This document shows, piece after piece, positions 2,336 through 60,303 of a stretch of 64,000 bases of DNA (positions are counted from its first letter, which is position 1; every line of letters starts with the position of its first letter). Made by a program: the position numbers and the translations under genes. The stretch is taken from the NCBI RefSeq assembly GCF_001514535.1, contig NZ_BCNO01000003.1, positions 123,344 to 187,343 on the forward strand, read 5' to 3'. Source of the DNA: Thermodesulfovibrio aggregans. Its GTDB lineage: Bacteria > Nitrospirota > Thermodesulfovibrionia > Thermodesulfovibrionales > Thermodesulfovibrionaceae. Below the pieces are notes generated by a model. It made no database searches, had not been told where the DNA came from, and saw nothing but the letters and a program-made list of their open reading frames with translations.

Positions 2336-2886
2336 TAAAAATAAATCTATTACCAGAAAGAAAGGTTAAGAAAGAGAGAAAGAAGGTTGAAATAAAATTA
2401 TCTGGGGAAATCGGTAAAAAACTTGCAATTCCTATAGTTATAACTTTAGTTATTCTCTTAGCTATTTTTGCCTATTGTGAAAGTACAAAATCCTCTCTTG
2501 AAAAACAGATTGATGAACAAAAAAAGAAATTGGAATTGCTTCAGAAAAAAATACAAGAAGTTAAAAAATTTGAAGCAATGAACAAGGATATTGAAGAAAA
2601 AACAAAATTAATTGAAAACCTCAAGAAAATGCAGTCTGCGCCTGTTAGCATTCTTAGTATAGTTGTTAAAAAACTTCCAGATGGAGTATGGCTTACAGGA
2701 CTTAGTTTTAACGATGTAGTTACAGTTGAAGGAATGGGGTTTTCAAACTTGAATGTTGTTCAGTTTGTTGAAAATCTTAAAGCAACTCAGGAGTTACAAG
2801 ATGTTTATCTTGTAGAATCCCAACAAACTGAGTTTGAAAAACAGAATGTTTATAAATTTACTTTAAAATTTAAATTGAAGGTATAA
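2332..2886 (+). CDS. pilN: Type IV pilus inner-membrane protein PilN
   Basis: Bitopic inner-membrane protein linking PilM to PilO. It starts MIKINLLPERK; the INLLP motif is the conserved PilM-binding peptide of the family. One membrane segment lies at about residues 32-48, followed by a long lysine/glutamate-rich coiled coil (about 50-100) and a small periplasmic domain. Length of 184 residues is normal. The ATG overlaps the pilM stop and the stop is one base from pilO, so translation is probably coupled. Confidence 0.92.
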   Translation: MIKINLLPERKVKKERKKVEIKLSGEIGKKLAIPIVITLVILLAIFAYCESTKSSLEKQIDEQKKKLELLQKKIQEVKKFEAMNKDIEEKTKLIENLKKMQSAPVSILSIVVKKLPDGVWLTGLSFNDVVTVEGMGFSNLNVVQFVENLKATQELQDVYLVESQQTEFEKQNVYKFTLKFKLKV

Positions 2887-2887
2887 G

Positions 2888-3475
2888 ATGGATTGGGAAA
2901 AACTTTCAAAAACCAACCGAATTTTATTAATGATTTTACCACCCATTGTTTTAATTGTACTTTTCAGCTCTATATATATGTTGCCAACCCTTGATAATAT
3001 TAAAAAACTAAAAAATGACCAAAAAAATATTCAGGAAGACATAGAAAAAGCAAATATAATTGTCAGTAAATATGAAGACTTAAAGGCTTTAAATGAAAAA
3101 CTGCAGAAAAAAATGGAGTTTTTAAAAACACTGCTTCCTAAAGAAACAGAGGTTACTGATGTTCTAAAAATGGTCTCCCAAATAGGACTCAATAAAGGTC
3201 TTGTCGTGACTTCATGGAAACCAAAGGAAAAAACAGTACATTCATCAAATGAAATTTATGAAATTCCTGTAGAAGTTGGTATGAAAGGTAAATATCATAC
3301 ATTTGGAACATTTTTCGCCGATATTACAAGAATAGAAAGAATCGTTAATATAAAAAAGATGGAAATAAAAAAGGGTGACAAAGATCCAACAATGTTAAAT
3401 GCGAATTTGACTGCTGTTACTTATTCACTGATACCTGAAGAAGAAAAGAAAAAAATACAACAAAAGAAAAAGTAA
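2888..3475 (+). CDS. pilO: Type IV pilus inner-membrane protein PilO
   Basis: Partner of PilN in the periplasmic alignment subcomplex. A membrane segment at about residues 12-32 is followed by a coiled coil (about 35-75) and a ferredoxin-like periplasmic domain containing YHTFGTFFADITRIERIV, a typical PilO stretch. It is 195 residues long, ends in a very lysine-rich tail, and its stop overlaps the ATG of pilP by one base. Position between pilN and pilP supports the call. Confidence 0.92.
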   Translation: MDWEKLSKTNRILLMILPPIVLIVLFSSIYMLPTLDNIKKLKNDQKNIQEDIEKANIIVSKYEDLKALNEKLQKKMEFLKTLLPKETEVTDVLKMVSQIGLNKGLVVTSWKPKEKTVHSSNEIYEIPVEVGMKGKYHTFGTFFADITRIERIVNIKKMEIKKGDKDPTMLNANLTAVTYSLIPEEEKKKIQQKKK

Positions 3476-3954
3476 TGGAAAGAAAGAGAATTTTAATCAT
3501 AGTCGGAGTTTTTTTACTAATTACGCTACTTGTAGTTAGTTACTTTTTACTCAACAAAACAGAGAAACCTCAACAGATACTTACAACCACTCAAAAAAAA
3601 CAACCAGTTCAGGTAGTTGAACCTACCATAGTATTTCCTACATATACCTATGATGCTCAACAAATGAGGGATCCCTTTGTCCCTCTAATTTTAAAAAGAG
3701 ATGAAAGAAAAAAAGGAGTATCACCTCTTGAAAGTTATGAAATAGAAGAATTAAAGCTTACAGGAATTGCGATTGACAAAAAAGGAGCTTTTGCACTTCT
3801 TCAAGCAACAGATGGAAGATTTTATATTGTAAGAGAAAACGATAGAATAGGATATAGCGGAGGCAAGGTAGTGAAAATCTTAAAAGATGGCATCAAAATC
3901 ATAGAAAACAATAAAGTTAAATATTTAAAACTCAGGCCGGAGGAAGAAAAATGA
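3475..3954 (+). CDS. pilP: Type IV pilus protein PilP, membrane-anchored
   Basis: Periplasmic protein that connects PilNO to the PilQ secretin. It has the family signature RDPFVPLI near residue 65 and a beta-domain with LTGIAIDKKGAFALL and YIVRENDRIG. Many PilP proteins are lipoproteins, but here residues 5-27 form an uncleaved-looking membrane segment with no lipobox cysteine, so it is probably anchored by a helix. Length of 159 residues is normal. Its end overlaps pilQ by four bases. Confidence 0.9.
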   Translation: MERKRILIIVGVFLLITLLVVSYFLLNKTEKPQQILTTTQKKQPVQVVEPTIVFPTYTYDAQQMRDPFVPLILKRDERKKGVSPLESYEIEELKLTGIAIDKKGAFALLQATDGRFYIVRENDRIGYSGGKVVKILKDGIKIIENNKVKYLKLRPEEEK

Positions 3955-7926: not shown

Positions 7927-9822
7927 ATGAATTTTAAAATACTTTCCCTTTTAATTCCTTTACTCTTAATTTCATCAGTTTATGTTTTCTCTCTTCCACC
8001 TGTTCTTTCAACAGGTGATGGAGGAGAACTCATAACAGCCTCTTACGGATTTGGAATTCCCCATCCATCTGGTTATCCCCTTTATGTTCAGATAGGTAAA
8101 CTGTTCAGTTTCTTACCATTTGGAAATATTGGTATCAGAGTTGAGTTAATCTCAGTTTTTTTCTCAATATTTACACTTTCTGTTGTATATTTTATTATTT
8201 TTAAAATTTCAGGTCAAACCCGTGAAGCTCATTTAGCTGCAATTGCTTCAATTGTTTTTCTTGCATTTTCTTATTCATTTTTCGGACAGAGTATTGTTGC
8301 AAAGTTTTATACTTTAAATTCTTTTCTTGTCATGTTTTTATTACTTTTGGGGATAAAAATAATTTTAAATGGATATGACAGAAGAATTCAGTTTCTTACA
8401 TCATTTATTCTGGGACTCACTCTTTCAGCACATCATACAGGATTTATGATGATTGTTCCTCTTGTTCTCGTTGGAATTTTTTATTACAGAGATTTTTTAA
8501 AAAATTTGCCATTGAGTATTGTATTTTTTCTATTAGGTTTCTCATTAAACCTTTATCTTTACATAAGAGGCATTAAGGAGAATCTTTTCAGCATGATACC
8601 TGTTACTGATTGGGATTCTTTTTTGACAGTTTTCTTAAGAAAAAACTATGGAGCAGGCTCGTCTATCGATGTTACATCATCGGGTTTTGTTAATTTTTAC
8701 GGTTATATCTATGCTTTTAAAAACTATCTTTATCTTATTGAAAAAAATTTTACTCTGTTTTCCATACCTTTTTTCATTCTTGGTATTGTCTGGCTTTTTA
8801 AAAAGTCAAAAAAACTTTTTGTATTTATTTTAACATCCTTTTTTATCTACTCTATCTTTCTTGCAAAACTTACATTTTCACTACAAAATCCTGATAACCA
8901 TGAGCTTTATGTTATAGGGCATCAGTATTTTATTCCTTCCTATTCTATTTACTGCACCGTAATAGGCGCAGGATTATACTTTATTTACACCATCTTTGAA
9001 AAATTTGGCTTTTATTTTCTTAAAAGAATTGTGCCAATTATTTTAATTTTTTTCCCTTTATTAATGATTCTTGATAGACTTACTGATCAGCATCAGAGAT
9101 ACAACTATGTTCCCTATTCCCATACAAAGGAAATTTTCACATCTCTACCAGTTTCCTCCATTTATATGACCTATGGAGATAATCATGCCTTTCAGGGATG
9201 GTATTTAAAACTTGTTGGAAAATACAGAGAAGACATATGCCAAATAGTTCTCGACGATTACAAGACAATGCTCTGGGCACTTCAGGGATGTAAACCTTAC
9301 AGACTTTACAAAGGACTTTTCCCTGAGTTTTTTGGTGGAGACTTGATAGAGCTTACTAATAAATATCGATATTACTCAATTCTTGCTTTATCAGAAAAAC
9401 ATCCACTTTACACTGTGGTTGACAGTTATCCTTATTTTAGCTCTTTTATATATATAAGTAAATCAAATAATAAAAAAGAGTTTGATGAATTTTTCATTGA
9501 AAGAATGAAAAAAATCGAGCCCTTTATTAACTATAAAGATTGCCTAACTCACCGAACAGATGATTTATTCACTATCAAATTATGTAATTTTTCTACGATT
9601 GCATATCTTAGCATAGCAAAGGCATTTGAGGAATTATCTAACAACAGAGGAGATTTGACTTTCGATCAAAAAATAACTTACGGAGATATCAAAGCAACGT
9701 TTAGGATGAAAATTAAAATTAATAATGAAAATGAAAGATATATCAACATTTATAATGCTATCAGGAAATATAACAAAGAGGATAAATTTTATCTATCAGG
9801 AAAGGGAAATGAAAAAAATTAG
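7927..9822 (+). CDS. DUF2723-family polytopic glycosyltransferase-like protein
   Basis: A membrane protein of 631 residues with about 11-12 hydrophobic segments in its first two thirds and a soluble C-terminal part. The first periplasmic loop holds the DUF2723 signature (TGDGGELITAS, then PHPSGYPLY), seen in GT-C-fold enzymes that transfer sugars from polyprenyl-phosphate donors to protein or lipid. It lies just after the pilin gene and upstream of glycan genes, so pilin or surface glycosylation is plausible but unproven. It overlaps the next gene by 14 bases. Confidence 0.82.
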   Translation: MNFKILSLLIPLLLISSVYVFSLPPVLSTGDGGELITASYGFGIPHPSGYPLYVQIGKLFSFLPFGNIGIRVELISVFFSIFTLSVVYFIIFKISGQTREAHLAAIASIVFLAFSYSFFGQSIVAKFYTLNSFLVMFLLLLGIKIILNGYDRRIQFLTSFILGLTLSAHHTGFMMIVPLVLVGIFYYRDFLKNLPLSIVFFLLGFSLNLYLYIRGIKENLFSMIPVTDWDSFLTVFLRKNYGAGSSIDVTSSGFVNFYGYIYAFKNYLYLIEKNFTLFSIPFFILGIVWLFKKSKKLFVFILTSFFIYSIFLAKLTFSLQNPDNHELYVIGHQYFIPSYSIYCTVIGAGLYFIYTIFEKFGFYFLKRIVPIILIFFPLLMILDRLTDQHQRYNYVPYSHTKEIFTSLPVSSIYMTYGDNHAFQGWYLKLVGKYREDICQIVLDDYKTMLWALQGCKPYRLYKGLFPEFFGGDLIELTNKYRYYSILALSEKHPLYTVVDSYPYFSSFIYISKSNNKKEFDEFFIERMKKIEPFINYKDCLTHRTDDLFTIKLCNFSTIAYLSIAKAFEELSNNRGDLTFDQKITYGDIKATFRMKIKINNENERYINIYNAIRKYNKEDKFYLSGKGNEKN

Positions 9823-13297: not shown

Positions 13298-13663
13298 ATG
13301 TTTAAATATGAACAAGATTCATTGATTAGGATAACAGAAAAACTAAAAAGAGTTTTATCTCATAGACTTAAAGCTGTTATTGCCTTCGGCTCAAAAGTAA
13401 GAGGAGACTTTAATGGAGAGTCTGATTTTGATGTTTTAGTCATTGTTGATGGTTTAACCATAGATGATGAAGTCAAAATTATTCAAATTTTTAGCAAAGA
13501 AGAGGACTTAACCGGAATTCCTTATGCACCAGTAATAAAATCTCTTGGAGTTTTTGAAAAAGAGAGAGAGTATAATACAGGTTTTTTTAGAAGTATTATG
13601 AGCGAGGGGGTATTTTTATATGACTCTATCAGCAGAGGAAAAGAAAGCACTTGCAGAGTATAG
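13298..13663 (+). CDS. MNT-type nucleotidyltransferase (antitoxin-like), module 1
   Basis: Minimal nucleotidyltransferase of 121 residues with the polymerase-beta motif GSKVRGDFNGESDFD (GS-x10-DxD). In MNT/HEPN systems the nucleotidyltransferase counteracts the HEPN RNase, in studied cases by adding AMP to it. The reading frame runs 44 bases into the following HEPN gene, typical of such pairs. It lies between the GT4 and flippase genes, so the pair looks like a cargo insertion in the glycan operon. That this pair is a functional toxin-antitoxin system is inferred. Confidence 0.82.
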   Translation: MFKYEQDSLIRITEKLKRVLSHRLKAVIAFGSKVRGDFNGESDFDVLVIVDGLTIDDEVKIIQIFSKEEDLTGIPYAPVIKSLGVFEKEREYNTGFFRSIMSEGVFLYDSISRGKESTCRV

Positions 13664-14036
13664 GCTAAAAAAGGCAAAAGATATTTTTGAAGAAGCAAAA
13701 TTCAATTTTGAAAATGATAGATATGGTACGTCTGTCAATAGGAGTTATTATGCAGTTCTTAATGCAGCAAGAGCCCTTTTGATTCTTAAAGGAGTTGACC
13801 CTGTAAGTCATAGTGGTTGCAAAACAATGCTTTCTCTTCACTTTGTAAAACCAGGGTTTATTGATGAGAAATTCATTGAGTATTTCAAAATTTTACTATC
13901 CAGACGAACTGATGTAGATTACGGAGACTTTGAAGAGATTAATAAAGATAAAGCTAAAGATTCCCTGGAAAAATCTTACGAATTTTTAACCATGGCTGAA
14001 AAACTGGTAAATGAGTTTATATCTCAACTAATATAA
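13620..14036 (+). CDS. HEPN-domain protein, module 1
   Basis: All-helical HEPN domain protein of 138 residues, partner of the preceding nucleotidyltransferase. It shows the long first helices (AEYRLKKAKDIFEEA), SVNRSYYAVLNAARALL and the RRTDVDYGDF element near residue 100, as in the PF05168-like HEPN group rather than the HepT/DUF86 group of modules 2 and 3. ATG 13620 has a GAGGGGG ribosome site. A strict RX4-6H motif is not obvious, so RNase activity is uncertain. The flippase ATG follows its stop directly. Confidence 0.78.
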   Translation: MTLSAEEKKALAEYRLKKAKDIFEEAKFNFENDRYGTSVNRSYYAVLNAARALLILKGVDPVSHSGCKTMLSLHFVKPGFIDEKFIEYFKILLSRRTDVDYGDFEEINKDKAKDSLEKSYEFLTMAEKLVNEFISQLI

Positions 14037-15209
14037 ATGCTTAAAGACATCTCCTCTGTTACACTTGCCTTTGTTTATGTGAATATTCTTGGCTATGTTT
14101 TTCATTCTGTTGTAAGCAGAAGTCTTGGACCTGCCGGTTATGGAGAGTTTATGGTTTTCTATTCATTTTTATTAACAATTGGCAATGTTACTGTTCTTCT
14201 TACAACTGTAAGTATAAAAACCATAATTGAAAACTATGAACGAAAGTATGATTTTTTAAGATCTCTGAGATTAGTTGCCATAGTTACTGGTGCATTGGTT
14301 GCTTTAGGTGTCTGCGCTTTTTCAAATTTTCTTAAAGATTTTTTGAATGTAACAAATTATTCTTACTTTTTTATTATTGCCCTGGCATGGTTTTTTATGT
14401 CTTTGCTCGCTGTGGAAAGAGGCTTTCTTCAGGCAACTGGCAGATTTCCAATTTTCGCCTTCTCTGGAGCATTGGAGCTAACAGTTAGATTAATTGCAGC
14501 ATTGGTGGCAATTTATGCTGGATTCAAAGTAGGAGGAATTATCTTTTCTACGGTTATTGGAGCACTCGTTGTATTAGTGATTCTTCTTAAGATTAATAAA
14601 AACATTATTGGTGAGAAAGCCCGATTAAATATAAAAAAAATGCTAACAATAGCTCTATATGCTTCTCCAACAGGTTTTTTTCTCTACGCTGATACAATTT
14701 TTGTAAAGAGAATCTTTGATGAACAAACTGCAGGACTTTATTCGGCAGTATCAATTGTAGGAAAAGTGCTTTTATGGTTTGTTCTGACAATTCTCGGGGT
14801 TTATTTCCCAAAATTTGTCCATTCAAAAAAAACAGAGTCTTTTAAAAAATTTGTATTGCAAATGTTTGGCATAGTAATCATATCTCAAGTAGCAGCTCAG
14901 ATAATCTGTTTTTTAATTGGTGAGCCTTTATTTTTGATGCTTTTTGGATCAAAGTTTGAACCTGCTTTAAAATTTCTCCCCATCTACTTTATCTCTCTTT
15001 TACCTCTTCTCTTTAATATGGTTTTTATAAGTATTGCTATTGCTTTAGAACGAGGGTTTCATATAATCTATGCACATCTTTTATTTTTTTATTCTGGATT
15101 TTTAGTATTACCTTTAAAAAACATCTCTGACTACTTAGCTTATATTTTTGGCATAAATGGAATTTTTGTTTTATTATATTTCTTGAATTTTAAGAAAGAA
15201 TTGAAATGA
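14037..15209 (+). CDS. Polysaccharide/lipid-linked oligosaccharide flippase (MOP superfamily)
   Basis: Polytopic inner-membrane protein of 390 residues with about 11-12 hydrophobic helices, including VVSRSLGPAGYGEFM in the first loop, a typical start for Wzx/MATE-like flippases. Such proteins move undecaprenyl-linked glycans to the periplasmic face. It ends in FKKELK. A diverged second copy of its last codons exists at 16177-16239 just before the next glycan gene, suggesting that it was originally adjacent to that gene. Confidence 0.82.
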   Translation: MLKDISSVTLAFVYVNILGYVFHSVVSRSLGPAGYGEFMVFYSFLLTIGNVTVLLTTVSIKTIIENYERKYDFLRSLRLVAIVTGALVALGVCAFSNFLKDFLNVTNYSYFFIIALAWFFMSLLAVERGFLQATGRFPIFAFSGALELTVRLIAALVAIYAGFKVGGIIFSTVIGALVVLVILLKINKNIIGEKARLNIKKMLTIALYASPTGFFLYADTIFVKRIFDEQTAGLYSAVSIVGKVLLWFVLTILGVYFPKFVHSKKTESFKKFVLQMFGIVIISQVAAQIICFLIGEPLFLMLFGSKFEPALKFLPIYFISLLPLLFNMVFISIAIALERGFHIIYAHLLFFYSGFLVLPLKNISDYLAYIFGINGIFVLLYFLNFKKELK

Positions 15210-15228
15210 ATGCCGTTGTAATCTTTAT
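15145..15228 (+). repeat. Left copy of ungapped direct repeat flanking MNT/HepT module 2
   Basis: This segment covers the flippase C-terminus plus a decayed start of the next glycosyltransferase. It aligns without gaps, at exactly 1032 bp offset, with 16177-16260 and differs at roughly a dozen positions by eye. From ATG 15206 it translates MNAVVIF then soon stops, paralleling MSALVIL of the intact GT2 gene. It is best read as one side of a duplicated junction created when the module arrived. Confidence 0.75.
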
Positions 15229-15252
15229 CAACTTAAGTACATGAGCAGGACG

Positions 15253-15675
15253 TTAATTATTGTTTTTAATAATTGAAAGAAAATGATTTTTGATTTTCTC
15301 TATATCTTTTAAATTTTTCTTCAAAATACCATAAATGATATTATCGTCAATTTTGTCATAGCTGTGAACAATGATATTTCTCAACCCAATCATCTTGTCA
15401 ATTATTTTTAAAAAATCTGAGGGAAATAAATTATTTTCATGGAGTATCTCAAAAACTTCTCTATTTGTTGATGGCTCTTTAAGTTTTTTCCTGGATATCA
15501 AAATCTAAGCTATATCAATTATAGCTTCAATTATTTTATGCAGATTCCTCTCTACTATGTCTTTAGCTCTCCATGAGGATTTATATTGTTTTAAATTACT
15601 GATCTCTGAGTTAATTTCTCTTAATCTTTTTAAAGATTCTTCTATAAGTTCAATCTTTTTAATATATAATTCCAT
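15253..15675 (-). pseudogene. hepT (DUF86) interrupted by an in-frame amber stop, module 2
   Basis: Two open frames in the same phase join into one HepT-like protein of about 140 residues. The first part (15675-15505) starts MELYIKKIELIEES and ends EAIIDIA at TAG 15505-15507. The second (15504-15253) continues with PSTNREVFEILHENN and carries the RX4HxY active site in GLRNIIVHSYDKID. A single change, for example CAG to TAG, explains the break. A TTG at 15499-15501 could allow reinitiation, but no ribosome site is seen. The first part overlaps the antitoxin gene by 17 bases. Probably a disabled toxin. Confidence 0.78.
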
Positions 15676-16108
15676 ATTTTTCAGCTCTAAATTTTTTAAG
15701 GAATGGTTTAAAATCTGAATACTCACGTATCACGAAGTTTTTGAATTCAAAATGTTCAACTTCTGACTTTTCATATATGCACACACCATTCAAAATTATA
15801 TTATGAAGAAGTTCTATAGAGACATATTTACTTCGCATATTTAAAACGCTTACCTCATTTGAAATTCCAAATTTTTTAAAAATTTTTGTGAATACGGATT
15901 CAATCTTTGAGATAAGTTCAAGAGCTTTCATTTCATCAACCCTGTGATTGGGAAGTATTGCTATGTCTATGTCACTTTCAGTTCTCAATTTGCCTTTCAG
16001 TATAGAACCATATAAATATATTGCCTCTATTTCAGTAGGAATATCATTAGGGGCTAATTCAGCAGGAATTTTTTCAATAATTTCCTCTAACACTATCATT
16101 TTTTTCAT
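15659..16108 (-). CDS. MntA-type nucleotidyltransferase antitoxin, module 2
   Basis: A 149-residue nucleotidyltransferase with the signature GSILKGKLRTESDIDIAI (GS-x10-DxD) near residues 34-51. It is the intact partner of the broken hepT downstream, which it overlaps by 17 bases. It lies on the strand opposite the surrounding glycan genes and within the region bounded by direct repeats, consistent with acquisition as a unit. In characterised MntA/HepT pairs the antitoxin AMPylates the tyrosine of the RX4HxY motif. Confidence 0.83.
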   Translation of the reverse strand: MKKMIVLEEIIEKIPAELAPNDIPTEIEAIYLYGSILKGKLRTESDIDIAILPNHRVDEMKALELISKIESVFTKIFKKFGISNEVSVLNMRSKYVSIELLHNIILNGVCIYEKSEVEHFEFKNFVIREYSDFKPFLKKFRAEKYGIIY

Positions 16109-16176
16109 ATTTTAATTATAGCAAAATTATTGAATTTGACTTTCAAATCAATTTCTTTTTTATGCTTTATCTCGTG

Positions 16177-16260
16177 TTTTTGGCATAAATGGAGTTTTTG
16201 TTTTATTATATTTCTTAAGTTTTAAAAAGGAGTTTAGATGAGTGCTCTTGTAATTTTGCC
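16177..16260 (+). repeat. Right copy of ungapped direct repeat flanking MNT/HepT module 2
   Basis: Partner of the repeat at 15145-15228. Before ATG 16238 it translates as the flippase tail FGINGVFVLLYFLSFKKEFR followed by a stop, nearly the same as the real flippase end. This shows that a second flippase terminus sits here without its gene body. After the ATG it forms the start of the functional GT2 gene. A good AAGGAG site lies within it. Confidence 0.75.
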
Positions 16261-16939
16261 GACTTACAATGAAGCAGAAAATGTAGAAAAGATAATTCCG
16301 AAACTGCTTAAACACGATGTGGACATACTCTTTATTGACGATGCCTCTCAGGATAAAACAGCAGAAAAAATACGAAACTGGATGAATCAGTCTGAAAGAA
16401 TTAACTTAATAGAGAGACCCAAAAAACTAGGGCTTGGTACAGCCTATGTAACAGGCTTTAAATGGGCTTTGAAAAGGCATTATGAGTATATCTTTGAGAT
16501 GGATGCAGACCTCAGTCATGACCCTGCCGAAATCCCGAATTTCATAAAAAAATGCAATGAAGGATATGATCTTGTAATTGGCTCAAGATATACTCGAGGA
16601 ACAATAAGCGTTGTTGGATGGGATTTTAAGAGACTACTGCTTTCAAAATTGGCAAATAAGTATGCAACCACTATACTTGGACTTGGATTTCTTACTGACG
16701 TAACAAGCGGATATAGATGCTACAGGAAAGGAGTACTTGAATCAATAGACCTTGATAATATAAAGTCAAATGGATATGCCTTCCAGATAGAGATGGTTTA
16801 CAGAGCCTACAAAATGGGATTTAAAATTACTGAAATTCCTATAATTTTTTACGAAAGAAACAGCGGCTCATCAAAGATGAGCAAAAAGATTATCAGAGAA
16901 GCAGCAATCATGGTCTGGAGATTAAGATTGGGTAAATAG
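16238..16939 (+). CDS. GT2 polyprenol-phosphate sugar (mannose) synthase-like
   Basis: Family 2 glycosyltransferase of the dolichol-phosphate mannosyltransferase type, expected to make polyprenyl-phosphate-hexose in the cytosol. Motifs are VILPTYNEAENVEKII, FIDDASQDKT, the catalytic MDADLSHDP, IGSRYTRG and a QIEMVYRAYKMGF helix. At 233 residues it is the compact form without C-terminal membrane segments. Its product is the kind of donor used by GT-C proteins such as the DUF2723 enzyme at 7927, which may explain the clustering. A GGAG site precedes the ATG. Confidence 0.9.
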   Translation: MSALVILPTYNEAENVEKIIPKLLKHDVDILFIDDASQDKTAEKIRNWMNQSERINLIERPKKLGLGTAYVTGFKWALKRHYEYIFEMDADLSHDPAEIPNFIKKCNEGYDLVIGSRYTRGTISVVGWDFKRLLLSKLANKYATTILGLGFLTDVTSGYRCYRKGVLESIDLDNIKSNGYAFQIEMVYRAYKMGFKITEIPIIFYERNSGSSKMSKKIIREAAIMVWRLRLGK

Positions 16940-27048: not shown

Positions 27049-28314
27049 ATGTCTAAAGGAAAAATTTTAGTATTGGATGATAGTCCTCTTGTAAGAAAAC
27101 TTGCAGAAGTCTCTCTACAGGAAGCAGGATATGACGTTTATACGGCAGGTGATGGAGAAGAAGGACTGAAAATTGCTGAGGAAGTTAAACCCGATTTAAT
27201 TTTAGTTGACTTTATAATGCCCAAGATGACAGGTGCTCAAGTATGTAAACTTATAAGGGAAAATGAGGTTCTTAAGGAAATTCCTATTATTTTGATTACT
27301 GGAAAAGGTGAAACAGTTGGAAAGACATTTATTGAAAAATACGGAGTTCTTGATTATTTCATAAAACCCTTCAAATCAGAAGAATTGGTAGGTAAAATTA
27401 ATCAAGTTCTTGGAAAAATTCCCCAGATTAAAGAAACTACTGAGGAAATCCCTGCTTTTAGTTTTGAACCTTCAGGAATAGAACTAAAAAGTGAGGAAGA
27501 AACAGAATCTTTCGAACTATCTGAGAGTGAATTACAAGAGTCTATTTCACTACCTGAAACTGAAGAAATATCATTGTCAGAAGAAAAAGAAATTAATTTA
27601 ACAGAAAAAATTGAATTAGAAGAAATTGAATTAAAAAAAGATACCCTTGAACAATTAGAGCCATCTCTTCCAGTAGAGGATCTGATTGAACCTGGAGAGT
27701 TGGAAATATTAGAAAAATCAGAAAGTTTTGAAATAGAAGAATTAAAAGTACAAGATATTAAGCCTGCTGAGGACTTAATTGAAGAATCAACAAAAACAGA
27801 GATTGAAGAAACAAAACTTGCCTTCGATTTAACTGCTCTTGAAAAAATAATAGATAATAAATTAGATAACTTTTATGAAAAAATAACCTCTCTATTTGAT
27901 AGCACAGTTGAAGCAACACTAAAAAAATATGGATTGATAAAAGATTATTCTGTTATTTTATCGGGAAGTTTAAATTTCTTCAGAATTTCTGAAATTTTTG
28001 ATTTAATCAATTCTAAAAACCTAAATGGTATATTCTATGCTTTTGGTAATGGGGTTGCTTACGAATTTTTATTTATAAATGGAAAAGTTATATATGGAAT
28101 CTCAAATTTACAAAAACAAAAAATTGGTTCCAAACTATTAAAAGAACTCTCTGATGAGGAAATAAAGAATTTTACTGTGGAAACTTTAAGTTACTTGAAA
28201 AATATTACGAACGGAAGTTTTATTTTTGAAAAAAAAGATTTTTCAGAAGCATGGTTGTTGAATAAACCAGGTTATACACCTTTAGAACTTTTTAGTGAAA
28301 ATATTATAAAATGA
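27049..28314 (+). CDS. Receiver - acidic linker - DUF4388-like protein (PatA/PixG-like)
   Basis: A 421-residue regulator. Residues 1-120 form a receiver domain with the acidic pair DD, the phospho-acceptor in LILVDFIMPKM near 54, ITGKG and the conserved lysine in FIKPF. Residues about 130-260 are an exceptionally glutamate-rich, low-complexity linker. The C-terminus (about 300-410) resembles DUF4388, with SVILSGSLNFFRISEIFDL and EFLFINGKVIYGIS. This REC plus DUF4388 combination recalls PatA/PixG of cyanobacteria (domain order differs), where it couples chemosensory signalling to type IV pili. Confidence 0.72.
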   Translation: MSKGKILVLDDSPLVRKLAEVSLQEAGYDVYTAGDGEEGLKIAEEVKPDLILVDFIMPKMTGAQVCKLIRENEVLKEIPIILITGKGETVGKTFIEKYGVLDYFIKPFKSEELVGKINQVLGKIPQIKETTEEIPAFSFEPSGIELKSEEETESFELSESELQESISLPETEEISLSEEKEINLTEKIELEEIELKKDTLEQLEPSLPVEDLIEPGELEILEKSESFEIEELKVQDIKPAEDLIEESTKTEIEETKLAFDLTALEKIIDNKLDNFYEKITSLFDSTVEATLKKYGLIKDYSVILSGSLNFFRISEIFDLINSKNLNGIFYAFGNGVAYEFLFINGKVIYGISNLQKQKIGSKLLKELSDEEIKNFTVETLSYLKNITNGSFIFEKKDFSEAWLLNKPGYTPLELFSENIIK

Positions 28315-58161: not shown

Positions 58162-58573
58162 GGAATTTATTAAATCAAAAATTTTTTTTATAAAATCCTA
58201 CTACGATGAACTTGAGCAAATACTTTCATTTTCAGACCTTGAAATAAAAAAAGACTTTATAAAGCTGAGAGCAATTGAAAGAATTATCCAGTTGATAGTT
58301 GATGAAATTATTGATATCAATAATCATATAATTCGATACGGCTCTTTAAAAATTCCCGAAAGCTTTCAAAGTACCTTCATTGTTCTTGCAGAAAACAATA
58401 TTTTACCTGAAAACTTTGCAAAAAAAATTGCTCCTGTTGTCGGACTTAGAAATAGACTTGTCCATAGATACGAGAAAATAGATTTAGATTTATTACTCAG
58501 TTTAGTGCGAAAAAATAAAGAGGATTTTATTGAGTATTTAAAATATATTTTTGACTTCATTGAGAAAAGTTAA
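58151..58573 (+). CDS. HepT (DUF86) RNase toxin, module 3
   Basis: A 140-residue HEPN protein with the complete RX4HxY active site in GLRNRLVHRYEKID near residue 105, the motif absent from the first half of the broken module 2 copy. The front region reads AIERIIQLIVDEIIDINNHII, matching DUF86. Its start overlaps the antitoxin gene and its stop overlaps the minus-strand ATPase stop by four bases. This copy looks intact. Confidence 0.85.
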   Translation: MIDKEFIKSKIFFIKSYYDELEQILSFSDLEIKKDFIKLRAIERIIQLIVDEIIDINNHIIRYGSLKIPESFQSTFIVLAENNILPENFAKKIAPVVGLRNRLVHRYEKIDLDLLLSLVRKNKEDFIEYLKYIFDFIEKS

Positions 58574-60303
58574 TTATCTTCACTTTCCCTTATGTAGTCA
58601 ACGAAGGCTTCCTGAAGAGGAACTGTAACTTCTATTATTTCATATTCTCTGATTTGAGCATTTTTAAGTAATTCTTCTATTTTCCTAATTGTTGTCTCCG
58701 GTTCAAAACTTCTTATGAATATTTTACTTCCATAGATGCTTATGTTTTGAATTTCTTTAATAATTAAATCATAGACCTGATGAAACTGTTTGCTTTTGAG
58801 CTGAATGAGGGTGCCTGAAATTTTTTCAGAGCCTTTTTTGATTTCCTCTGGACTTCCCATTGCAATGAGTCTTCCATGATGCATGAGGCAGAGTCTGTCA
58901 CAGTTTTCTGCTTCATCCATGTAATGGGTTGATACAATTACTGTTACTCCCCTTTTTCTTGAAAGCTCAAATATTATCTTCCAGAAACTTCTTCTTGCAA
59001 TTGGATCAACCCCGCTTGTTGGTTCATCAAGGAATAAAACTGGTGGTTCATGCAAAAGTGCGCAGGCAAGAGCAACTCTCTGCCTTATTCCAAGAGGAAG
59101 GTCCTTGGTAGTTCTGTTTTCCAGCCCTTTAAGTCCAAGTAGCTCAATTATGCCTCTGAAATCACCTTTTTTAACACTGTAAAGCCCTGCATATAGTTTC
59201 ATGTTTTCCATTACTGTAAGATCTCTGTAAAGGGAAAATCTCTGTGACATATATCCTATTGTTGACCATATTTTTTTCTTTTCTTTTCGCACATCAAAGC
59301 CATTTATACTGATACTTCCCCCTGATGGTTCAAGAAGTCCGCACATCATTTTTATAAGAGTTGTTTTACCGGCACCATTGGGACCAAGAAGACCTAAAAT
59401 CTCTCCTCTTTTTACATCAAATGTAACAGAATCAACAGCTTTAAATTTTCCAAATATTTTTGTAACGGATTTACACGAGATAATGTGAGATTCCTCGCTT
59501 CGCTCGGAACGACAAAAAAAGGACTCGGAATGAGAAAATGGAACTTCTTTTAAATGAGAAGATGAGACTTTTTGAGAGGATGATACTTTTTCTATAAAAA
59601 CTTCCTCTAAATTTCCAAGTTCATCAGGGCTTCCCTGAAGAAGAATTCTTCCTTCATGCATGAGTGCAACTCTATGACACCTTTCTGCTTCATCCATATA
59701 AGATGTGGTAAGTAAGACAGTTACCCCTCTTTCTCTAACAAGTCCGTGAATGATGTTCCAGAAATCCTGCCTTGAAAGAGGGTCAACACCTGTGGTTGGC
59801 TCATCAAGAAGAATAATGTCTGGAAGATGAAGTAGCGTGCAAACAAGAGCAAGCTTCTGTCTCATTCCACCAGAAAGAGCTCTTGCTTGCCTTTTAAGAA
59901 AAGGTGTAAGTCGTGTTATCTCAAGAAGTGTTTTTTTATTTTTTTCAAAAATCTCATCTGGAATAAGCCTTAATCCTCTGAAAAATTCAATATTTTCCTC
60001 AATTGAAAGAGAGTCATAAAGATTAAGCCCAAGACCCTGAGGCATATAGCCAATGATTGCCTTTGCTTTTTCAGGGTTTTTGGTAACATCAATATCATTT
60101 ATGAATGCTTTACCTTCATCTGCCTTAAGCACACCTGCAAGTATCTGTATTATTGATGTTTTTCCAGCACCATCCGGCCCAATAAGACCAAATACCTCGC
60201 CTTTGTTTACAGAAAATGAAACTTGGTTTACTGCTTTGATTTTTTTATAGCTTTTGCAGAGACTTTCAACTTTTATAACAGGTATTAACGTGGTTTTATC
60301 CAA
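58570..60303 (-). CDS. Double ABC ATPase of exporter, with repeat-derived linker
   Basis: A 577-residue protein with two nucleotide-binding domains. Domain one has GPDGAGKTSI, LSGGMRQKLALVC and ILLDEPTTGVDP; domain two has GPNGAGKTTLI, LPLGIRQRVALACAL and LFLDEPTSGVDP. In domain two the LSGGQ-like position reads LPLGIRQ, a common variation in YbhF-type proteins. The linker (about 240-275) contains low-complexity SSSQKVSSSHLK and FCRSERSEESH, encoded by an interspersed DNA repeat. It overlaps the HlyD gene by 19 bases. Confidence 0.9.
   Translation of the reverse strand: MDKTTLIPVIKVESLCKSYKKIKAVNQVSFSVNKGEVFGLIGPDGAGKTSIIQILAGVLKADEGKAFINDIDVTKNPEKAKAIIGYMPQGLGLNLYDSLSIEENIEFFRGLRLIPDEIFEKNKKTLLEITRLTPFLKRQARALSGGMRQKLALVCTLLHLPDIILLDEPTTGVDPLSRQDFWNIIHGLVRERGVTVLLTTSYMDEAERCHRVALMHEGRILLQGSPDELGNLEEVFIEKVSSSQKVSSSHLKEVPFSHSESFFCRSERSEESHIISCKSVTKIFGKFKAVDSVTFDVKRGEILGLLGPNGAGKTTLIKMMCGLLEPSGGSISINGFDVRKEKKKIWSTIGYMSQRFSLYRDLTVMENMKLYAGLYSVKKGDFRGIIELLGLKGLENRTTKDLPLGIRQRVALACALLHEPPVLFLDEPTSGVDPIARRSFWKIIFELSRKRGVTVIVSTHYMDEAENCDRLCLMHHGRLIAMGSPEEIKKGSEKISGTLIQLKSKQFHQVYDLIIKEIQNISIYGSKIFIRSFEPETTIRKIEELLKNAQIREYEIIEVTVPLQEAFVDYIRESEDN
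59487..59534 (-). repeat. Interspersed repeat element inside ABC ATPase linker
   Basis: On the minus strand the segment reads GTCGTTCCGAGCGAAGCG followed by AGGAATCTC, with a second partial copy CTCATTCCGAGTCC just before it. This closely matches a widespread short imperfect palindrome found scattered in many bacterial genomes (recognised from memory). It is translated in frame as FCRSERSEESH, so it was captured within a coding linker without breaking the gene. Confidence 0.7.

Follow-up and report, generated by a model that had tools for sequence, protein, structure and literature searches.

How did a toxin–antitoxin pair come to lie between two copies of one and the same gene junction? Arrival and fixation of chromosomal toxin–antitoxin pairs are an open question, and the scar of a doubled junction in Thermodesulfovibrio aggregans addresses it. 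It was found in a stretch of 64,000 nt from contig NZ_BCNO01000003.1 (hereafter the window; the genome is labelled G000), where an MNT/HepT pair (module 2) is flanked on both sides by the end of a flippase gene joined to the start of a GT2 glycosyltransferase gene (Table 1).

Table 1. Features of the doubled flippase–GT2 junction and of module 2, in window coordinates
Feature	Position	Strand	Remarks
Flippase (Polysacc_synt, PF01943)	14037-15209	+	Intact, 390 aa; end within left repeat
Left junction copy	15135-15235	+	Supplies the working flippase end; its GT2 start is dead (frameshift, Shine-Dalgarno lost)
Decayed GT2-start remnant	15206-15235	+	ATGAATGCC...; no homology detectable past about 15235
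HepT2 toxin gene (PF01934)	15253-15675	-	In-frame TAG at 15505-15507, ahead of RX4HXY motif (RNIIVHSY)
MNT2 antitoxin, nucleotidyltransferase (PF18765/PF01909; Polbeta/NTP_transf_2)	15659-16108	-	Open; GSX10DXD (GSILKGKLRTESDID)
Right junction copy	16167-16266	+	Drifting flippase tail; Shine-Dalgarno AAGGAG kept; working GT2 start
Promoter-like TTGGCA-18-TATTAT	16180-16209	+	In right copy; matching site in left copy, 15148-15177
GT2 glycosyltransferase (PF00535)	16238-16939	+	Intact, 233 aa

The initial annotation had aligned 15145-15228 with 16177-16260 at a constant offset of 1032 bp. A repeat search with ungapped alignment confirmed this offset for 15135-15225 and 16167-16257, which agree at 75 of 91 positions; the repeat is thus real, but its true start lies about 10 bp before 15145. 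BLASTN, with one indel, aligned 15145-15235 to 16177-16266 at 83.5% identity and 94 bits, compared to a top score of 36.5 bits in 40 dinucleotide-shuffled windows, so that the identity also holds above chance in the exact alignment that had been proposed as a check. Within the 64-kb window, this is the top-scoring direct repeat with a spacing below 6 kb (E 3e-19), and the shuffles together with the window-wide ranking exclude chance similarity of the copies. Past about 15235 and 5' of 16167, anchored extensions scored no higher than shuffled sequence, and hidden flippase or GT2 remnants beyond the repeat ends were therefore rejected. As the initial annotation had recognized, the right copy translates as the tail of the flippase (about 23 codons, followed by the true start of GT2) and the left copy contains a decayed, frameshifted start of GT2. 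The junction is indeed present twice, once on each side of module 2.

The insert itself (15236-16166) holds only MNT2 and HepT2, both antisense to flippase and GT2. It encodes no transposase or integrase, and the repeat search revealed no inverted repeat that pairs its two ends. With a PF01934 protein and a nucleotidyltransferase, module 2 matches the HepT/MntA (HEPN/MNT) class I family, and of the motifs defined for this family (PMC7641770) GSX10DXD is present in MNT2 and RX4HXY is encoded in HepT2. Unlike in the family, the HepT2 frame is not intact, as a stop codon precedes RX4HXY, whereas an intact HepT relative in the same genome (C1:11773-12132) reads through this position. Because of this premature in-frame TAG, module 2 should be inactive, a toxin–antitoxin pair with a broken toxin. 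A second such pair, module 1 (window 13298-14036; MNT plus PF05168 HEPN), has both genes open here.

The flippase aligns over its full length with the orthologue in genome G010 (74% identity), and GT2 shares 85% identity with its counterparts in G010 and G013; no nearer GT2 relative was obtained when GT2 was searched against genome and viral contigs. A tree built from CoaBC and the PAP2 protein places G010 and G013 as the sisters of the window genome. The initial annotation had suggested comparison with the empty site in related genomes, and both sisters provide it: in each, flippase and GT2 meet at one contiguous junction, where stop and start overlap as ATGA, and no module lies in between. 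Adjacency of flippase and GT2 was observed in these three genomes only.

Relatives of module 2 were found at other places of the same glycan locus. In G006, one directly follows GT2 (MNT2 67%, HepT frameshifted) in the order GT9-GT2-module 2-MT-...-GT4-flippase, with the module in the same orientation and its HepT side towards GT2. G004 retains module 2-MT-GT4-flippase remnants (MNT2 58-72%). Both have other neighbour genes and lack a spanning repeat, so module 2 is not always accompanied by a detectable duplication; relatives with the module and without the doubled junction, which the initial annotation had regarded as evidence against its reading, are thus found in part. Given this distribution within the locus, module 2 may have resided there for a long time and been rearranged later, instead of being a newcomer, and the divergence of MNT2 (67%) is similar to that of the linked genes. 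One alternative is a history in which a larger block GT2-module 2-MT-GT4-flippase, as in G006, was tandemly duplicated and its middle then deleted save for the module and two junctions. Tandem duplication of the block creates flippase–GT2 junctions by itself and predicts a GT2 remnant on the HepT side and a flippase remnant on the MNT side, which the window fits; the gene orders of G006 and G004, where module 2 is retained with MT, GT4, and flippase, and the MNT2 divergence expected of an old resident also agree with it. We nevertheless consider it unlikely, as several deletions would have had to stop within roughly 20 and 60 bp of the module. Neither the middle or end of GT2 nor MT, GT4, or the body of the flippase has left a remnant beside it, and the cases in G008 and G001 described below would be left unexplained.

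The glycan locus is generally rich in toxin–antitoxin remnants. Relatives of module 1 are decayed in G010 and G013, where they occupy a different junction (GT2/NYN), and a module-1 remnant follows GT2 in G008. The latter genome also has a RelB-like/ParE-type pair between GT4 and flippase (L058:12302-12765), so that several junctions of the locus carry a toxin–antitoxin pair in some species. In G004, an IS21-type element (IstA/IstB; L059:7694-9981) splits the MNT2 relative, and the adjoining flippase is decayed as well.

The substitutions in the two copies reveal what happened to them after they arose. Left and right copy differ at 16 of 91 positions, compared to 17 between the left copy and G010 and 19 between the right copy and G010. 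With G010 and G013 as outgroup, six changes are derived in the left and eight in the right copy; G008 offered too few sites to root the split between the copies. In the flippase frame, the left copy has acquired one nonsynonymous and three synonymous changes. The latter three all lie within the Shine-Dalgarno region of GT2, where the anti-Shine-Dalgarno duplex amounts to -0.2 kcal/mol versus -7.5 for the corresponding site of the right copy and of G010 and G013. Conversely, five of the six derived changes in the flippase frame of the right copy are nonsynonymous, including Y to R; to call the differences mostly conservative at the protein level, as had been done initially, is unfair to this copy. 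A comparison of substitution patterns with homologous junctions had also been proposed, and relative to G010 and G013 it yields a picture of reciprocal decay. This supports the view that each copy retains only the half still in use, the flippase end on the left and the GT2 start on the right, although the nonsynonymous/synonymous contrast between the copies has small counts (Fisher p 0.19) and the decay pattern is accordingly support, not proof.

One part of the right copy is nearly unchanged: its counterpart of the core 15145-15184 shows no derived change at 40 sites, in contrast to six at the 31 sites outside. Might the repeats then serve in site-specific attachment or in regulation and be no duplication scar at all? 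The nearly unchanged core does hold promoter-like hexamers, but a promoter-like pair is equally frequent in shuffled sequence and thus offers a mere hint. Moreover, the repeat is flippase coding sequence that is conserved in G010, G013, and G008, the insert has neither a recombinase gene nor terminal inverted repeats, and no further copies of the repeat exist in the genus, which makes this explanation highly improbable.

That the left copy lost its Shine-Dalgarno sequence while the right copy drifted at nonsynonymous sites points to relaxation after duplication, and thus favours an old duplication in place. The same observations bear on homologous integration, in which a related strain's module 2, on a circle or fragment together with that strain's own flippase–GT2 junction, would have recombined at the resident junction. 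Such integration would yield exactly the observed anatomy with copies that were diverged from the outset, the left-right distance resembles a between-species distance, and donor-target homology has been proposed for the flanking repeats of transposed Arabidopsis genes (PMC2869330). However, if each junction had worked in its own strain, the differences between them should lie mostly at silent sites that preserve the Shine-Dalgarno sequence, whereas here the Shine-Dalgarno sequence is affected in one copy and the coding constraint in the other, as after a duplication; furthermore, none of the 16 congeners provides a donor with the order flippase-module 2-GT2. We therefore think that integration of this kind probably did not take place. 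Of the two options left by the initial annotation, old duplication is favoured, and recombination with a related strain is kept as the less favoured possibility.

On balance, it thus seems somewhat probable that module 2 lodged at an ancestral flippase–GT2 junction, that about 100 bp of the junction were copied across, and that reciprocal decay followed. In the common ancestor of the window lineage, G010, and G013, flippase and GT2 would have been contiguous with the ATGA overlap. A segment of approximately 0.94 kb with the antisense MNT/HepT pair would then have entered this junction in the window lineage, and about 100 bp of the junction would have been duplicated onto the other side of the module, presumably in one single event with its arrival. 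From then on the left copy would have ended the flippase, and the right copy would have supplied the Shine-Dalgarno sequence and start of GT2; as both halves of the junction were duplicated, the insertion could be tolerated in this tightly overlapping (4-bp) gene pair. Each copy would subsequently have lost the half it did not need, and HepT2 would later have been broken by the stop codon. While the structure was young, addiction, i.e., the harm caused by losing an active pair, might have guarded it against collapse by recombination between the direct repeats.

Does this history have parallels? A survey of about 70 toxin–antitoxin loci of the genus and 386 control positions (cut-off for spanning repeats E below 0.01) identified clear junction duplications at three loci, those of the window, G008, and G001. 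In G008 (L058), an antisense PIN/MazE-type (VapBC-type) pair at 8341-9011 separates two copies of a GT2-end/module-1-start junction, which is contiguous in G010 and G013; the copies at 8257-8281 and 9337-9360 agree at 24 of 25 nt, and the repeat spans about 25-45 bp. In G001 (L296), an antisense VapBC at 2411-3096 lies between 1948-2182 and 3226-3460. These copies of 235 bp are 94.9% identical and comprise the last part of the small gene next to the pair plus its terminator; no syntenic relative was found that could serve as empty site. In all three cases, the pair runs antisense to the gene that was duplicated, and the repeats are separated by about 0.94-1.04 kb. Although the pairs of G008 and G001 are related (VapC 71%), the two inserts have nothing in common beyond the gene pair and its promoter side. 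Since the outer parts differ, there is no sign of shared mobile-element ends, which is what one expects if no transposon was involved. The terminator loop in G001 is inverted between the copies (L296:2140-2182 vs 3418-3460; AAGGTTGTTTTT vs its reverse complement), with no change in the stem.

The approximately 67 remaining toxin–antitoxin loci (at least 64) displayed no clear flanking junction duplication. A general signature of MNT/HepT modules was rejected as well, as spanning repeats were absent at 20 other HepT loci. Among the controls, seven of 386 had a spanning repeat; two of these, in the windows at 27900 and 59400, resemble repeats of paralogous coding sequence, and the others are 19-22 bp matches that are exact or nearly so. 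Without the two repeats of paralogue type and three short (19-22 bp) sites, none of the 386 remains. Fisher tests of loci against controls gave p 0.003 for the three cases together, 0.02 once the window's own case was removed, and 0.15 without the first two, an enrichment that leans on cases found by looking; recurrence across toxin–antitoxin loci is consequently suggestive and not a rule.

Three further loci were left out of the clear cases. L303 has a candidate repeat of 30 nt at 83%. In L291 (G002), a VapBC beside an IS110-like gene has non-coding flanking direct repeats of about 78% (2113-2269 and 3310-3477); these are partly REP-like and could represent either a further target duplication or a REP-like element. 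L289 (G005) contains dispersed repeats centred on the palindrome GTTGAAATAATTTCAAC between neighbouring toxin–antitoxin pairs (86-206, 2251-2411, 3108-3173, and 3872-3942). In the window, paralogous coding sequence appears to account for a 234-bp direct repeat of 69% (58870-59100 / 59647-59877), which lies just to the right of another HepT gene (about 58190-58549).

That two related species show this pattern as well suggests that pairs of this kind can settle in chromosomes by duplicating a stretch of their target. More generally, and only tentatively, small toxin–antitoxin pairs without transposase might move as units into gene junctions with a long, variable target duplication, and addiction might hold the insertion until the repeats have diverged. 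If so, the direct repeats would make a fresh insertion liable to precise loss, and addiction would retain it in the meantime. A scar that recurs and can be dated, being young in G001, of intermediate age in G008, and old in the window, would allow insertion, retention, and decay to be traced within one genus, and the reciprocal decay of a doubled gene junction offers a concrete mark for spotting old insertions inside operons.

Target-site duplications of insertion sequences and transposons are short (2-14 bp) and come with a transposase or terminal inverted repeats. With about 100 bp duplicated and neither of these features, such an origin is rejected for module 2. A chromosomal toxin–antitoxin pair between long direct repeats is known from Microcystis aeruginosa PCC 7806, where a ParDE-like pair beside MaOC1 is flanked by 152-bp direct repeats (PMC7935541). 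In contrast to those of the window, the Microcystis repeats are identical and contain inverted repeats, and they were neither described as pieces of neighbouring genes nor accompanied by an empty site (PMC7935541). A closer likeness exists to the restriction-modification genes of Helicobacter pylori 26695 and J99, which inserted with long target duplication (Nobusato et al., 2000, as cited in PMC1643837, PMC3874152, and PMC3031569). According to these citing accounts, such insertions have variable direct repeats of around 100 bp and no transposase, and a relative with the empty site has just one copy. Similarly, a small addiction-type unit lies between target repeats (91-101 bp, 82-84%) in the window, G010 and G013 have one uninterrupted copy of the target, and the insert lacks a transposase. 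Unlike in the H. pylori case as recounted there, the repeats are old (82%), the module is dead, and species were compared instead of strains. As the unit is a toxin–antitoxin pair and not a restriction-modification system, it resembles the published process but falls outside the published set. By analogy, module 2 would thus work like an insertion with long target duplication, here with a toxin–antitoxin pair as the inserted unit.
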